Shown here piece after piece: positions 7,157 through 15,030 of a stretch of DNA of 64,000 bases; position 1 is the first letter of the stretch, and every line of letters starts with the position of its first letter. The stretch is from Leifsonia xyli (lineage in GTDB: Bacteria; Actinomycetota; Actinomycetes; Actinomycetales; Microbacteriaceae), in contig CP014761.1 of the NCBI GenBank assembly GCA_001647635.1, positions 806,001-870,000 of the forward strand. Reading direction: 5' to 3'. Under the pieces are notes generated by a model. That model was not told the origin of the DNA. It did not search any database and saw only the letters and a program-made list of their open reading frames with translations. The translations under genes and the position numbers were made by a program.

Positions 7157-9256
<2,100 letters not shown>

Positions 9257-9740: not shown

Positions 9741-10445
9741 ATGGCCGCCACGACTGGTGTGCGCCGACGTGCCCATATCGATCTCGACGCCATCCGCTCG
9801 ACGGCAGCCTCCGCCGCTTCGCCGCTCCCCGACTGCACCGCCGATCTCCGCGCCGACGCGTACGGACACGGGCTCATCCCCGTGGCACGTGCGCTGACGG
9901 ATGCGGGGGTCGGCGGTTTTCTCGTCTCCCGGGTGGAGGACGCGGCCGCGATCGCCGATGACGGACTGCCCGCGCGGGTCTTCGTCGGGCAGGCTCCCGA
10001 ACCGCTGCTCGGCACGTCGCTGTTCGGGCTCGACCCCGCGCATCCGACCCCGCCGGCGATGCGACTGGAGGGCGAGGTCGTCTCGGTCAAGCGGGTTCCT
10101 GCCGACCGCGGCGTCTCCTACGGCTACACCTACCGCACCTCCCGCCCCAGCACCCTCGTGCTCGTCGCTCTCGGGTACGCGGACGGCATCCTGCGCGTCG
10201 CCTCGAACAAGGCGCCGGTGAAGGTCGGCGACACGATCGGACGCATCACCGGACGCATCGCGATGGACCAGTTCGTGGTCGACATCGGCGACGACACGGC
10301 GCGCCCCGGTGACGCCGTCGTCCTGTTCGGCGACTCCGCACGCGGCGAGCCGACCGTGCTCGACTGGGCGGATGCGCTCGGCGTCGCCGCCCCCGTGATC
10401 ACCAGCCGCCTCGGCCGCCGCATCGAGAGGACCTACGCCGCATGA
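9741..10445 (+). CDS. Short alanine-racemase-like protein: Tyr domain kept, PLP lysine lost
   Basis: 234 residues, against about 370 for a normal alanine racemase. The N-terminal DLDAIR and RADAYGHG motifs are present, but the PLP-binding lysine of K-A-D-A-Y-G-H-G is Arg37. Most of the TIM barrel (roughly 150 residues carrying the phosphate, substrate-Arg and His positions) is absent. The C-terminal beta domain is complete: VSYGYTY with the catalytic tyrosine (Tyr127), GYADG and GRIAMDQ. The frame is open throughout, so this is not an obvious pseudogene. It sits 10 bases upstream of the long alr gene. In canonical Alr dimers this tyrosine acts in the partner's active site, so a heterodimer is plausible. 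GGAGG directly abuts ATG 9741, which makes the exact start slightly uncertain. Confidence 0.85.
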   Translation: MAATTGVRRRAHIDLDAIRSTAASAASPLPDCTADLRADAYGHGLIPVARALTDAGVGGFLVSRVEDAAAIADDGLPARVFVGQAPEPLLGTSLFGLDPAHPTPPAMRLEGEVVSVKRVPADRGVSYGYTYRTSRPSTLVLVALGYADGILRVASNKAPVKVGDTIGRITGRIAMDQFVVDIGDDTARPGDAVVLFGDSARGEPTVLDWADALGVAAPVITSRLGRRIERTYAA

Positions 10446-10455
10446 GGACGCCCGC

Positions 10456-11532
10456 ATGACGATCGTGGACGCCGTCGCCGAGCCGCTCCCCCGCGCCGTG
10501 ATCGACCTCGCTGCCGTGCGACACAACGTCGCGCACCTCACGAAGCTCATCGCGCCCGCCGAGACCATGCTGGCTGTGAAGGCCGACGCCTACGGCCACG
10601 GCCTCCTCCCCATCGCCCAGGCGGGCCTCGAAGCAGGGGCGTCGTCGCTGGCCGTGCTCGAGATCCCCGCCGGACTCGTGCTGCGGCACGCCGGCGTGAC
10701 CGTCCCGATCCTCGCCTGGCTGCACGGGCAGGACACGGACTGGCGCGCGGGCATCGAGGCCGACATCGAGCTCGGCATCTCCGCTGCGTGGCAGCTGGAG
10801 GCGATCGCGGCTGCCGGCGCCGACCGCCCGGCGGTCGTGCACCTGAAGGTCGACACCGGCCTCAGCCGCAACGGCGCGACCCGCGAGGAGTGGCCCGGGC
10901 TCGTTCAGTACGCCGTCGAACTGGAGCGCCAGGGCCTGGTCCGCATCCGCGCCGCCTGGTCGCACCTCGCCGACGCCTCCATCGCCGACGACGAGGCCGC
11001 GCTGGCGGAGTTCCGCGACGCGGTCGTCCAGGCGGAGAAGCTGGGCGCGCACTTCGAGGTGCTGCACCTGGCGGCGAGCTCGGCGGGCATCCGGATGCCG
11101 GAGGCGCGGTTCTCGTTCGTCCGGTTCGGCATCGCCGCCTACGGCTTCTCCCCCTTCGACGACGCCACCGGCGCGGAGCTCGGACTCATCCCGGCGATGC
11201 GGCTGGAGGCTCCCGTCACCCAGGTGCACGTCGGCGGCACCACGCAGGTGCGGCTCGGTATCGGCTGGGCGGACGGCGTTCCCACGCTCGGGATCGCCAA
11301 GACCAGCATCCAGCTGAACGGCCGACGCTGCCAGCTCCTCGCCGTCGAGGCGGACAGCATGCTGGTGGATGCGGGAGCGCACCGCGTCGAGGTCGGCGAC
11401 ACCGCGATCCTCTTCGGCCCGGGCACCGACGGCGAGGTCACCGCCGAGAAGTACGCCGACTGGGCCGAGACGATCGCCGACGAGATGGTCACCGGCGTCG
11501 CCCCTCGCGTCCCCCGCGTCTACGTCAACTGA
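10456..11532 (+). CDS. alr: Alanine racemase, PLP barrel subunit lacking the catalytic Tyr loop
   Basis: 358 residues, family fold III PLP racemase. The barrel carries the PLP lysine (Lys42, AVKADAYGHG) and the family motifs VDTGLSRNG, AWSHLAD, AASSAG and FVRFGIAAYG. The C-terminal domain is altered. About 17 residues that normally hold V-S-Y-G, with the second catalytic base, are missing between QVHVGG and GIGWADG. The usual R-I-x-M-D motif has also become VEADS. By family knowledge it should make D-alanine for the cell wall, but by itself it lacks the L-to-D proton-transfer tyrosine. The preceding gene retains exactly that part. GAGG of the upstream stop region may serve as the ribosome binding site. 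Confidence 0.88.
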   Translation: MTIVDAVAEPLPRAVIDLAAVRHNVAHLTKLIAPAETMLAVKADAYGHGLLPIAQAGLEAGASSLAVLEIPAGLVLRHAGVTVPILAWLHGQDTDWRAGIEADIELGISAAWQLEAIAAAGADRPAVVHLKVDTGLSRNGATREEWPGLVQYAVELERQGLVRIRAAWSHLADASIADDEAALAEFRDAVVQAEKLGAHFEVLHLAASSAGIRMPEARFSFVRFGIAAYGFSPFDDATGAELGLIPAMRLEAPVTQVHVGGTTQVRLGIGWADGVPTLGIAKTSIQLNGRRCQLLAVEADSMLVDAGAHRVEVGDTAILFGPGTDGEVTAEKYADWAETIADEMVTGVAPRVPRVYVN

Positions 11533-11605: not shown

Positions 11606-12322
11606 TCAGAGCGAGACGCCGAGGCGGTCGGCGATAGCGCGGCGCGCGTTCGTCGCGTAGCGGTCGACCCGCTCGGTCTGCGCGACCGGCGGCAGCTCGC
11701 TGCGCAGCGCGGTGCCCAGCAGCCGGTCGGCCAGCGCCGGATTCATCGGAAGCAGCGGGCCGTGCAGGTGCGTGCCGATCGACGCGCCGACGACCACGCC
11801 CTCCGTGCCGTCGCCGTTGCCGGTCCCGCTGACGAGACGGCCGAGCGGTTCCGCGCCGTCGAGCACGGTCCGCGCCGAGTGGTTCTCGAAGCCCGCCACG
11901 GTCGAGCCATCTGCCAGACGCACGACGACCTCCCCGACGTGCCGCTTGCTCCCGAGCGCTGCCCGGGTCGGGAAGACGCCCGCGCCCGCCAGCAAGTCGC
12001 CTTCCGGCGTCTCCAGGCCCGTGCCGAGCAGCTGCCAACCGCCGGCGATGGCGAGGAAGGGCACGCCGGCGGCCTGCCACTCCCGCAGCCGCGGCGCGAT
12101 GCGCAGCACGTCCTCGTGCACGGCGCGCTGACCCGAGAGCGGGCCGGAGCCGATGTGCACGAGGTCGACGCCCGTGGGCAGCTCGCCGCCGACGGCGTGC
12201 GGGACGACCTCGGCGTCGATGCCGCGCCAGCGCGCGCGCTCGGCCAGCGCCAGGACGTTGCCGGCGTCGCCGTTGATGCCGAGCTCGGCCGGGTACAGGT
12301 GCAGGATGCGCAGGACGGTCAT
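11606..12322 (-). CDS. gatD: GatD-like glutamine amidotransferase without the nucleophilic cysteine
   Basis: 238 residues, CobB/CobQ-like class I glutamine amidotransferase of the GatD type. GatD normally hydrolyses glutamine and passes ammonia to MurT, which amidates D-Glu of lipid II. The nucleophile-elbow motif, normally [IV]-C-[AG]-G-[YL]-Q, reads AIAGGWQLLG: the cysteine is Ala93 (codon 12044-12046, GCC). The histidine motif HLHGPLLPMNP near residue 187 and the N-terminal strands are retained. ATG 12322 overlaps the murT stop (ATGA), so the two are translationally coupled. The protein should fold and bind MurT but not hydrolyse glutamine by the usual mechanism. This fits a family whose peptidoglycan uses that D-Glu carboxyl for cross-linking. 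Confidence 0.88.
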   Translation of the reverse strand: MTVLRILHLYPAELGINGDAGNVLALAERARWRGIDAEVVPHAVGGELPTGVDLVHIGSGPLSGQRAVHEDVLRIAPRLREWQAAGVPFLAIAGGWQLLGTGLETPEGDLLAGAGVFPTRAALGSKRHVGEVVVRLADGSTVAGFENHSARTVLDGAEPLGRLVSGTGNGDGTEGVVVGASIGTHLHGPLLPMNPALADRLLGTALRSELPPVAQTERVDRYATNARRAIADRLGVSL

Positions 12323-13593
12323 CGCTCGCCGCCCTCCAGGTCGAGGAAGCCCAGCTGCTTCCGGATGAGCATCATCTGCTCGTAGTTCACGATCATCGTC
12401 TTGGTGCCGCGGGCCGGCTTCGGCAGCTTCAGGAACGCCTGCAGCGCCGGCTTCAGCTCCGGGACGACCTGGTCGACGTCGATGCCCGCGTACGCGAAGC
12501 GCGTCGCGAACTGCCACGCCTTCGTGCCGGACACCACATCCACGTGCGTGAGCTTCGACAGGTCGATGTCGTAGACCCACGACGGATCCGGGGTGCCCTC
12601 GTCGACCGCGACGAACACCTGCTCGGGCGACTCCGCGAGATAGTCGAGGTTGAGCTGCAGGCTCGGCGGGTTCTTCATCATGATGATCTCGACGTCCTCG
12701 TCGTTCACCTTCAGCGTCTCGCCGCGTCCGTAGACCGTGCGGAGCGCGGCCATGGCGGCGACGACGGCGGTGGGCTGGAAGCGGTCGCCGAGGAGGCGGC
12801 GCGCCATCGCGGTCGCGCCCGCCGCGTCCACCGCGTAGTGCAGGCCGCGTGCGGGGAGGCCGATGCGCACATCCACGCCGCCGATGGTCAGCTGGGCGCT
12901 CTGCACCTCGAGCTTGCTGACGAAGACCGACGGGATGGGCAGCGTGCCCGCCGCCGTGCCGGTGAGGTCCTTCACGTTCGCCAGGCCGTTCGGAGACGAT
13001 TCGATGATGGACGGAGCCACGGCGAACGTCGTCACGTCGCGGCCCTGCGCGGTCAGCTCCGCACCGACGCGCGCCAGGCTGTCGTCGTCGGCGTTCACCA
13101 CGACGAACTCGGACGAGCCCTCGGCGATGGAGCGCAGCATCCCGATCACCCGGGTGGGCTCGAAGAAGCGGTTGAGCTGGTCGATCTGCACGTTGAGCAG
13201 CAGGGAGCCGCGCGGCTTCAGCACGCGAGCGAGGTCGACGCCGTAGGCCTCGTCGACCTCGATCACGCCGACGTCGCCGCGCACGTACCCGTCGAGCGGC
13301 ACGTCGGCGAGCAGGGCGGAGGCGATGCCCTGCGGCAGGTTGCCGCCGGACGGGTTGGTGAAGACGTCCAGGCCGTGCTCGCGCAGGATGGCGGTGAGCA
13401 TGTTCGTCGTCGTGGACTTGCCGTTCGATCCGGAGACGAACACGACGCCGAGCGGAAGCCGGCTGACGGCGCGCTCCAGGAACTTCGGCGCGATGGCGAG
13501 GGCGACGCGGCCGGGGACCGCGGAGCCGCCTCCCCGCAGGCGAAGGAGCCAGCGGGCGAGGCGGCCGGCGATGACCGCCAGTCGGTAGCGCAC
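12319..13593 (-). CDS. murT: MurT-like Mur ligase lacking the zinc-ribbon cysteines
   Basis: 424 residues. The Mur ligase central domain has the ATP loop GSNGKSTTTNML and NPSGGNLPQG. The C-terminal DUF1727 domain includes MKNPPSLQLNLDYL and DPSWVYDIDL. Other MurT proteins carry a four-cysteine zinc ribbon inserted in the central domain; this sequence has no cysteine at all. The loop that normally reads N-D-x-x-x-D-G-x-D-x-S-W is shortened to VDEGTPDPSW. MurT with GatD normally amidates the alpha-carboxyl of lipid II D-glutamate. Here ATP use and substrate binding seem preserved while the glutaminase interface is altered. The GTG start lies 4 bases after the rpoD stop, so rpoD-murT-gatD is a likely operon. 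Confidence 0.88.
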   Translation of the reverse strand: MRYRLAVIAGRLARWLLRLRGGGSAVPGRVALAIAPKFLERAVSRLPLGVVFVSGSNGKSTTTNMLTAILREHGLDVFTNPSGGNLPQGIASALLADVPLDGYVRGDVGVIEVDEAYGVDLARVLKPRGSLLLNVQIDQLNRFFEPTRVIGMLRSIAEGSSEFVVVNADDDSLARVGAELTAQGRDVTTFAVAPSIIESSPNGLANVKDLTGTAAGTLPIPSVFVSKLEVQSAQLTIGGVDVRIGLPARGLHYAVDAAGATAMARRLLGDRFQPTAVVAAMAALRTVYGRGETLKVNDEDVEIIMMKNPPSLQLNLDYLAESPEQVFVAVDEGTPDPSWVYDIDLSKLTHVDVVSGTKAWQFATRFAYAGIDVDQVVPELKPALQAFLKLPKPARGTKTMIVNYEQMMLIRKQLGFLDLEGGER

Positions 13594-13597
13594 CGGT

Positions 13598-14959
13598 TTA
13601 CTCGAGGTAGTCGCGCAGCGACTGCGACCGCGACGGGTGGCGCAGCTTCGCCATCGTCTTCGACTCGATCTGACGGATGCGCTCGCGCGTCACGCCGAAC
13701 GTGTCACCGATCTGGTCGAGGGTCTTCGGCATGCCGTCGCCGAGGCCGAAGCGCATGCGGATCACGCCCGCCTCGCGCTCCGACAGGGAGTCGAGCAGGC
13801 TCTCCAGCTGCTTCTGCAGCATGGTGAAGCCGACCGCGTCGGCCGGCACGACCGCCTCGGTGTCCTCGATCAGGTCGCCGAACTCGCTGTCGCCGTCCTC
13901 ACCCAGCGGGGTGTGGAGCGAGATGGGCTCGCGACCGTACTTCTGCACCTCGATGACCTTCTCCGGGGTCATGTCGAGTTCCTTCGACAGCTCCTCGGGG
14001 GTGGGTTCGCGACCCAGGTCCTGCAGCATCTGGCGCTGCACGCGGGCCAGCTTGTTGATGACCTCGACCATGTGCACCGGGATGCGGATGGTGCGCGCCT
14101 GGTCGGCCATGGCGCGGGTGATCGCCTGACGGATCCACCAGGTGGCGTAGGTGGAGAACTTGAAGCCCTTCGTGTAGTCGAACTTCTCGACGGCACGGAT
14201 GAGGCCCAGGTTGCCCTCCTGGATGAGGTCGAGGAACTGCATGCCGCGGCCGGTGTAGCGCTTGGCGAGCGACACGACGAGGCGCAGGTTGGCGCCGAGC
14301 AGGTGGCTCTTGGCGCGCTGGCCGTCGCGGGCGACCCACTTCAGCTCGCGCTCGAGCTCCTTGCTGAGGTTCGGAGTGTTCGCCAGCTTGTCCTCGGCGA
14401 ACAGACCGGCCTCGATCCGCATGGCGAGCTCGACCTCTTCGGCCGCGTTCAGCAGCGGGACCTTGCCGATCTGCTTCAGGTAGTCCTTGACCGGGTCGGC
14501 GGTGGCGCCGGTGATGGTCGTCGAGTAGACGGGGATGTCGTCCTCTTCGTCGACGGCGCGCAGCACGAGCGCGTCGGTCGGCAGGGGCACGTCGGCTGCG
14601 GCGGCCAGGGCCGCGGGGGCCTTGCTCTCCGTGTCGGGCTCGGCGTCGTCGTCCGCCTCGGCCTCGGCCTCGTCGGTCTCGGTCTCGTCGGTCGCCTCGG
14701 CGTCCTCCGCGACCTCCACCTCGTCGATCTCGACCTCGGCGTCGTCGTCGAGCTCCTCGTCGTCGTCAGCCGCGGCGGACGCCTTGGACGTCTGCTTCTT
14801 CGCAGCCGTCGACTTGGTCTTCGCCGGAGCCTTCGCCGCCGCCTTCTTGGGCGCGGCCTTCTTCGCCGCGGGCTTCGCGGTCTCGTCCGCAGCCGCAGTC
14901 ACGGTCTCTTCGACCTCGACCTCCGCTTCGCGGGTCTTCGTTGCTGCACGGGTTGCCAT
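13598..14959 (-). CDS. rpoD: Principal RNA polymerase sigma factor (SigA/HrdB type)
   Basis: 453 residues. The first 150 residues are low complexity: a Lys/Ala-rich stretch followed by a strongly Asp/Glu-rich stretch, typical of actinobacterial principal sigma factors. Then come region 1.2 ([16 protein letters not shown]), region 2 with the core-binding and -10 recognition helices ([21 protein letters not shown], here [20 protein letters not shown]), region 3, and region 4 with the -35 helix-turn-helix ([13 protein letters not shown]). It directs transcription of most housekeeping genes. ATG 14959 has AAAGG 8 bases upstream and begins MATRAATKT; an ATG five codons earlier is less well placed. 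Confidence 0.95.
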
Positions 14960-15030
14960 GTGAACACCTTTCATACCAAGCGGAGGAGGGCCGGGATCCT
15001 GACGGCCGAGCCTGGCTCAGGGTTGCGTGC

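Follow-up and report, generated by a model that had tools for sequence, protein, structure and literature searches.

A MurT-GatD pair without the glutaminase nucleophile

What can a lipid II amidotransferase do once its glutaminase subunit has lost the catalytic cysteine? The question is raised by a murT-gatD pair of Leifsonia xyli (family Microbacteriaceae) located within positions 806,001 to 870,000 of contig CP014761.1, a stretch of 64,000 nucleotides that is called here the window. As set out below, we favor, with a confidence that stops well short of certainty, that pairs of this kind are ATP-dependent ligases joining the bridge amino acid to the alpha-carboxyl of D-Glu in the group B cell wall. 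The features of the pair are as follows.

11606..12322, minus strand: gatD, 238 amino acids, GatD-like subunit lacking the glutaminase nucleophile, with Ala93 aligned to Staphylococcus aureus Cys94
12044..12046, minus strand: codon of Ala93 (catalytic Cys position), computed from the gatD coordinates
12272..12274, minus strand: codon of Asn17, at the position of the Tyr30 channel plug of Streptococcus pneumoniae GatD (alignment and PMC6085368)
12319..13593, minus strand: murT, 424 amino acids, GTG start; Mur-ligase-like, with intact ATP/D-Glu-site residues and no Cys tetrad
12586..12603, minus strand: shortened GatD-facing loop of MurT, DEGTPD, with the D349-equivalent retained (alignment)
12319..12322, minus strand: ATGA overlap of the murT stop and the gatD start (sequence)

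Both frames are open and complete. When aligned with the solved S. aureus GatD, the window protein displays Ala93 in place of Cys94 and keeps Asp19 and the His of GTHLHGP (the HGP motif). The MurT contains no Cys, and DEGTPDPSW replaces the NAADGRDTSW of S. aureus (...ADGRDxSW), with the Asp aligned to D349 kept. Alignment and coordinates therefore confirmed what the initial annotation, made from the sequence alone, had described: Ala93 at the nucleophile position, a Cys-free MurT with a shortened GatD-contact loop, and open frames coupled by ATGA. The window MurT scored over both Pfam cut-offs (PF08245, Mur_ligase_M, and PF08353, MurT_C; 38.5 vs 24 and 35.9 vs 25 bits, respectively), and the predicted model of MurT alone had a mean predicted local distance difference test score (pLDDT) of 92.8 and a predicted template modelling score (pTM) of 0.93. 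The NCBIfam equivalog scores of the pair were far below cut-off (119.9 of 450 and 105.1 of 800 bits), which is weak evidence, one model pair being named for staphylococci.

The genome, a single contig of 3.6 Mb, yielded one MurT_C match, one match to the window GatD and three other GATase_3 matches. A second, intact MurT-GatD pair, which according to the initial annotation would have spoken against its reading, was not found in this genome, as the single MurT_C match indicates, although Leifsonia aquatica does carry one beside its Cys-less pair. Among three Leifsonia loci (L006-L008), the ratio of nonsynonymous to synonymous substitution rates (dN/dS) was 0.13-0.22 for gatD and 0.08-0.10 for murT. 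Since these values are low and 98 of 114 pairs of the family lack the Cys, the Ala93 observation is neither chance nor a sequencing error. The change in MurT-GatD is family-wide, under selection and structurally coherent.

Distribution of the Cys loss and residues retained

With the window GatD as query, matches were obtained in 118 of the 149 family genomes searched and in 75 of 198 genomes drawn from the order. A total of 138 adjacent murT and gatD loci were examined (L138, which had neither gene, was excluded beforehand), 114 from the family and 24 from outside it, the latter drawn from the top matches found in the order and read with a flank of 1.5 kb only. Pairs with the GatD Cys are termed here Cys-type and those in which GatD has no glutaminase nucleophile, Cys-less. 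The nucleophile was Cys in all 24 pairs outside the family, and within the family it was Cys in 16 and another residue in 98 (G 64, A 17, H 8, S 4, N 3, T 2). With the His type and a divergent VFGTS type set aside, 88 Cys-less rows remained, and these fell into one split of the concatenated tree with support 1.0. Removal of the duplicate loci L143 and L144 left 86 pairs for the residue, flank and plug counts, and in them the nucleophile position was occupied by G (60), A (17), S (4), N (3) or T (2). Most simply, the nucleophile would have been lost once at the base of this clade, with the position drifting afterwards. Because the Cys-type set of 40 was defined by the GatD nucleophile, its 40/40 score for Cys is true by definition, and the statements on Cys that are independent of the class definition are the 24 of 24 outside the family and the split in the tree.

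The ligase half was conserved. All 86 pairs of the clade kept the P-loop Lys, the Asn and Asp-Glu corresponding to S. pneumoniae N85 and D112/E113, the hinge Arg and the D349-equivalent, while the N322 equivalent was present in 83 and the Lys preceding it in 59. These positions matter in the characterized enzymes: that of S. pneumoniae is reported to be killed by changing Asn85 or Asp112/Glu113 (PMC6085368), and that of S. aureus by D349N, C94S and C94G (PMC6113224). In contrast, the DG loop of MurT was found in 40/40 Cys-type vs 0/86 Cys-less pairs, and the same distribution (40/40 vs 0/86) was obtained for the GatD Tyr at the position of S. pneumoniae Tyr30, described as plugging the passage towards MurT (PMC6085368). 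As to the remaining catalytic residues of GatD, the His was kept in 57 of the 86 Cys-less pairs (Q, G, K, N, S or Y in the others) and the Asp in 77, and Asn22 was invariant.

The zinc ribbon is a different matter. It is reported to occur in the MurT of only some Actinobacteria (PMC6085368), and the initial annotation had presented its absence as a peculiarity of the window protein. The absence is real (zero Cys) but not diagnostic: nearly all Cys-type MurT partners of the order also miss the Cys tetrad, so that we rejected it as a marker and do not consider it part of the novelty.

Could the Cys-less pair be a decaying pseudo-enzyme, with the glutaminase in the process of being lost? The drift of the nucleophile (G, A, S, N, T) and His (57/86) positions would fit, but the purifying selection in the three Leifsonia (dN/dS 0.13-0.22), the conserved gene order and the invariance of GatD Asn22 and of the MurT site make this explanation so improbable that we practically discount it. 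Cys-type and Cys-less pairs coexist in G050, G060, G113 and L. aquatica, a coexistence suggesting separate functions, and the Cys-less pair probably does something other than glutamine-dependent amidation. As a separate observation, a strongly reduced genome of the family (G013, contig of 0.93 Mb; L121) keeps at the sigA-parE slot described below a Cys-less pair, with Ser at the nucleophile position, plus a racemase-like pair.

Proposed reaction

The loss of glutamine hydrolysis proposed in the initial annotation is almost certain by analogy with S. aureus, where both C94G and C94S are reported to abolish glutamine-dependent activity (PMC3266927, PMC6113224). The Cys-less pair would then descend from the lipid II amidotransferase as a form peculiar to this lineage, with a GatD that has ceased to hydrolyse glutamine and a MurT that, judging by the residues observed, should still bind ATP and the alpha-carboxyl of D-Glu and make the acyl phosphate. 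The loss of the nucleophile, the Tyr plug and the DG loop may have remade the GatD-MurT interface, and the amine of an amino acid, instead of ammonia, would attack the acyl phosphate. The complex would form the bond with which the group B interpeptide bridge begins, D-Glu alpha-CO-NH-X, where X is D-diaminobutyrate, D-ornithine, D-lysine or a glycine that leads on to these; the D-diamino acid may be supplied by a racemase-like pair, AlrS-AlrL, where present at the slot.

Two considerations make this reaction plausible. S. aureus MurT with GatD C94G is reported to display NH3-dependent activity at pH 8.5, with glutamine use lost and GatD still required (PMC3266927), and Gly, as in that mutant, is the commonest state of the nucleophile position in the Cys-less clade (60/86). 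Since the C94G complex amidates with supplied ammonia, no new chemistry would be required for a supplied amine to take the place of glutamine. Furthermore, Fem-type peptidyl transferases extend amines and are not known to extend carboxyls, and a bridge growing from the D-Glu carboxyl thus requires a carboxylate-amine ligase.

The C94G result, together with the intact D-Glu/ATP site of MurT, would also accommodate a complex that still makes D-isoglutamine from free or otherwise sourced ammonia, with GatD being structural only. We find this unlikely. A complete Cys-type pair is also present in some of the genomes, in the standard classification the alpha-carboxyl carries the bridge in group B walls, and the racemases, diaminobutyrate (DAB) transaminase and alternative amide ligases found at the slot have no obvious link to amidation. 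In addition, the S. aureus C94G system is reported to be inactive with ammonia at pH 7.5 (PMC3266927).

The sigA-parE slot and its contents

The preferred reading, a ligase for the bridge amino acid, draws on the genomic context. In the window, the pair lies in a slot bordered by two genes taken here to be sigA and parE.

13598..14974, minus strand: sigA, upstream border gene of the cassette slot
7157..9256, minus strand: parE (topoisomerase IV B-like), downstream border gene of the slot

A sigA gene adjoined 83/86 Cys-less pairs and none of the 40 Cys-type pairs, the three exceptions being L025, the flank of which is short, and in G111 and G145 the second copy of the Cys-less pair; parE was on the other side of the slot in most loci whose flank reaches that far. 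Of the 14 genomes of the family with only a Cys-type pair, the seven examined all had a sigA-parE interval of 0.74 kb or less (L257-L263), and the interval was likewise empty in G005, G017, G047, G057 and G110.

In the 27 genomes of the family without any MurT, the slot was empty in 4, cut off in 1 (G040) and filled in 22. Twenty of these 22 carried a PF01996 (CofE/F420 ligase-like) protein, nearly always as the first gene after sigA, and 18 of the 20 also a PF14397 ATP-grasp, whereas the other two (G045, G108) held different content; MurT-less genomes as ligase-free were accordingly ruled out for 20 of the 22 filled slots. CofE-like and ATP-grasp genes were also present in 5/5 further members of the family from the order search (L252-L256). 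No locus of the Cys-less clade had a PF01996 gene, which was present in both VFGTS loci. Across the 149 genomes of the family, the MurT of the Cys-less pair was found in 94, the ATP-grasp in 24 and both in a single one (Fisher p 5e-11). For these figures, 91 MurTs were assigned by a profile score of at least 429 bits (Cys-type MurTs reached at most 411) and 3 through their GatD and location; 3 other low-scoring or cut MurTs were excluded, as were other Mur ligases, which the profile also matched near E 1e-11.

A survey of named genomes through a SigA pattern gave at least 120 loci. Among the 120 listed, the slot held MurT in 80, a CofE-like gene in 16, nothing in 15 and another insert in 1, and was cut off in 8; none had MurT and a CofE-like gene together. 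One row counted as Cys-less (L317) is in fact of the His type, several cut rows hold a partial murT, and Glaciihabitans RYN_57 was counted twice (L279, L365). The genera with MurT in the slot included Leifsonia, Agromyces, Clavibacter, Rathayibacter, Cryobacterium, Subtercola, Herbiconiux, Agreia, Frondihabitans, Frigoribacterium, Plantibacter, Okibacterium, Mycetocola, Microcella and Pseudoclavibacter. The CofE-like gene appeared in Yonghaparkia, Pseudolysinimonas, one Lacisediminihabitans and one Homoserinimonas metagenome-assembled genome (MAG), and in some Salinibacterium, Agromyces, Cryobacterium, Frigoribacterium and Rhodoglobus whose congeners have MurT. Whole-genome searches of 30 named genomes disclosed the MurT of the Cys-less pair in 13, a Cys-type MurT in 11 (nine Leucobacter and two Pseudoclavibacter) and none in 6. 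The best explanation for these results is that the sigA-parE slot is an exchangeable cassette containing the Cys-less MurT-GatD, a CofE-like ligase (mostly with the ATP-grasp) or nothing.

Variants were also observed. Eight loci (L127-L134), all adjoined by sigA, harbor a distinct MurT-GatD with His for the GatD Cys (FTHNALEV) and a Cys-rich MurT; the His-type GatD of L127, the one scanned, matched no Pfam family, and four of the eight loci also hold an ATP-grasp. In L135 (G112) and L137 (G049), the VFGTS MurT-GatD (MurT with VLEVAE and Cys) lies beside the CofE-like gene, L137 having no sigA within the flank read. Locus L118 (G016) is the sole one of the 94 genomes with the Cys-less pair to carry an ATP-grasp too, and does so at the same slot. 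In L245, L249 and L356 (Agrococcus sp. KRD186), some 3 kb separate sigA from parE, with no match to the ligase profiles used.

A racemase-like pair and a diaminobutyrate transaminase

The window slot contains two further genes.

10456..11532, plus strand: alrL, 358 amino acids, alanine-racemase-like; Lys, His and Arg of the pyridoxal phosphate (PLP) site kept, C-terminal active-site part degenerate
9741..10445, plus strand: alrS, 234 amino acids, alanine-racemase-like; without the PLP Lys and most of the barrel, C-terminal Tyr and Met kept

Complementary pairs of this kind were present in about 40 slots. In an alignment that includes a few repeats of one species, AlrS had the PLP Lys in 0 of the 41 rows with a residue there, Tyr or Phe at the C-terminal site in 42/42 and Met in 41/41; AlrL had the Lys, the His and the Arg in 41/41 each, Met in 2/41 and Tyr or Phe in 19/41. 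The active site of alanine racemase (Alr) is built from both subunits of a homodimer. As the losses in AlrS and AlrL complement each other, the two look like an obligate heterodimer and a candidate D-amino acid racemase. They belong to the Alr family and differ from its homodimers in being individually incomplete: the half with the PLP lysine is missing from AlrS, and most of the C-terminal half is gone from AlrL. Only the AlrS-AlrL heterodimer would therefore be expected to be active. The genome holds a separate Alr that scores higher than either. For the racemase pair and DAB TRANSAMINASE, a diaminobutyrate-2-oxoglutarate transaminase scored above the EctB cut-off in two slots, L227 and L232, the order in the latter being alrS, alrL, ectB and ATP-grasp.

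Bridge chemotype and the tree of the Cys-less pair

Published descriptions give D-Lys for Frigoribacterium, Orn for Frondihabitans and DAB for Cryobacterium and Glaciihabitans (PMC7033078), L-DAB connected to D-Orn for Agreia and DAB for Subtercola (PMC5945732), and type B2gamma for Clavibacter, Agromyces and Herbiconiux (PMC5358740, PMC5217419, PMC10011130). In the rpoB tree, Agreia grouped with Subtercola and Herbiconiux gentiana. In that of the Cys-less MurT-GatD, it grouped instead with Salinibacterium sedimenticola (support 99) and, next, with Frondihabitans and Frigoribacterium (100). By approximately unbiased (AU) tests, the cassette data rejected the rpoB grouping (p 2e-10) and rpoB rejected the cassette grouping (p 0.005). 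Changes between DAB and D-Orn/D-Lys numbered one on the cassette tree and two on the rpoB tree, or two and four when the Lys label that we assume for other genera was included. The GatD of Agreia, Frondihabitans and Frigoribacterium carries FED and has Lys where the HGP motif has its His, and that of the DAB-labelled genera carries FEN. The lineage of the Cys-less pair tracks the bridge residue against the species tree, with one well-supported exchange, that of Agreia. A second possible exchange, Okibacterium and Mycetocola vs Plantibacter, depends on chemotypes that we assume for these genera.

These data bear on two other explanations. One is that the Cys-less pair adds only the Gly that lies between D-Glu and the diamino acid in several B types, with a second enzyme adding the diamino acid. 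A Gly-diamino acid bridge would presumably need two carboxyl activations, and two-ligase cassettes (CofE-like plus ATP-grasp) do exist. However, the tree of the pair follows the diamino acid, and the pair occurs in B2gamma genera, in which we take the bridge to be a directly attached diamino acid; a role confined to Gly is in our view quite unlikely. The Gly reported in group B hydrolysates would suit this role, but Gly is reported also as the position-1 residue (Mur-Gly) of these walls (PMC4156110).

The second is that the slot acts on another envelope polymer or a small molecule, the correlation with bridge type being a phylogenetic coincidence. PF14397 is named as sugar-transfer associated and PF01996 for F420 synthesis, and Leucobacter builds a type B wall without the slot genes. 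Considering that MurT keeps a lipid II-type carboxylate site, that the racemase-like pair and the DAB transaminase share the slot, and that the cassette exchange in Agreia follows the bridge change, we judge this very unlikely.

Extending the proposed ligase role of the Cys-less pair to the locus as a whole, we put forward, at somewhat less than even chances, that sigA-parE could be a serotype-like "wall-bridge" locus. Interchangeable and unrelated amide ligases (the glutaminase-dead MurT-GatD, its His-for-Cys variant and the CofE-like protein plus ATP-grasp), assisted by a diamino acid racemase of heterodimeric type and in some cases by a DAB transaminase, would determine which amino acid is linked there to the alpha-carboxyl of D-Glu, and the group B chemotype used in taxonomy would switch whenever cassettes are exchanged horizontally.

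Evidence that narrows the proposed role

Several observations weigh against the role proposed for the Cys-less pair or restrict it. The C-terminal loop of its MurT has Gln for Lys in 27/86. Only 2 of the loci searched gave an EctB match, and the FED/FEN pattern is broken by one Cryobacterium MAG with FED. The Agreia switch is a single event, and support is weak at many inner nodes of the rpoB tree. Nearly all strains were labelled with the chemotype of their genus; the label of Herbiconiux sp. SYSU D00978 is doubtful because this strain is far from H. gentiana in rpoB, and we assumed DAB for Leifsonia, Rathayibacter and Plantibacter and Lys for Okibacterium, Mycetocola and Microcella. The CofE/ATP-grasp cassette occurs in Agromyces seonyuensis, Cryobacterium sp. 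BB307 and Frigoribacterium sp. CG_9.8, the congeners of which have the Cys-less MurT. Since congeners carry different cassettes, cassette class is not simply chemotype, and a simple rule leading from one to the other is unsupported. With regard to the enzyme itself, the GatD site is reported to be just over 20 Å from the ATP gamma-phosphate even in the closed model (PMC6113224). Because of this separation, the amine does not necessarily bind in the GatD pocket.

The clearest restriction comes from two genera. The three Agrococcus loci had two empty slots and one with an unrelated insert, and a whole-genome search of Agrococcus baldri gave no MurT match; the wall of this genus is, we presume, of type B. 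In Leucobacter, GatD was of the Cys type in 9/9 genomes checked and the slot was empty in the 10/10 named loci in which it was determined, and no PF14397 match over the cut-off was found in the nine genomes searched. Leucobacter celer subsp. astrifaciens CBX151, for which a published table gives cross-link type B and DAB (PMC4804768), itself has nothing in the sigA-parE slot and encodes a Cys-type GatD at another site. Group B therefore does not need the Cys-less pair, and we ruled out that it is the universal group B ligase, as Leucobacter, Agrococcus and the genomes with the CofE cassette do without it.

The initial annotation had gone further than this. Its suggestion that the pair joins a diamino acid to D-Glu agrees with the intact ligase half, the slot context and the cassette tree, all of which point to the group B bridge, although not for all group B walls. 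Its description of the pair as the missing ligase for group B does not hold, given the Cys GatD of type B Leucobacter and the CofE-like ligase used by Yonghaparkia, some Salinibacterium and others. Likewise, Leucobacter, a type B genus that kept the Cys, contradicts the idea that Cys loss tracks group B as a whole.

Relationship to known ligases and significance

The Cys-less pair shares with the MurT-GatD lipid II isoglutaminyl synthases (S. aureus 6gs2/6h5e and S. pneumoniae 6fqb) the gene pair, the sequence family, the ATP/D-Glu site and the D349-equivalent. It differs from them in lacking the catalytic Cys, the Tyr plug and the Cys4 zinc ribbon, in the shortened DG loop, in its location at the sigA-parE slot and in scoring below the NCBIfam cut-offs. 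MurC-F belong to the same ligase superfamily, and their acyl-phosphate chemistry joins an amino acid amine to a carboxylate. The reaction that we propose for the Cys-less MurT would be of the same type; unlike MurC-F, this protein resembles MurT and by homology would need a GatD partner, and its target would be the alpha- rather than the gamma-carboxyl of D-Glu.

Among the open-access papers that our searches listed, none was seen to identify the enzymes responsible for the group B cross-bridge or to describe the Cys-less pair. The MurT-GatD locus described here provides a small, co-located set of candidate genes for its synthesis, and the exchange of slot contents offers a way in which sister genera may come to have different bridge chemotypes. 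GatD itself represents a glutaminase subunit kept under selection after losing the glutaminase chemistry. Lastly, CofE (F420:L-glutamate ligase, PF01996) and ATPgrasp_ST (PF14397) are ligase-type families, unrelated to this MurT, that occupy the slot where it is absent, so that one locus exposes two unrelated ligase solutions. Three loci (L236, L241 and L244) were found to carry two copies of the ATP-grasp ligase in a single sigA-parE slot.

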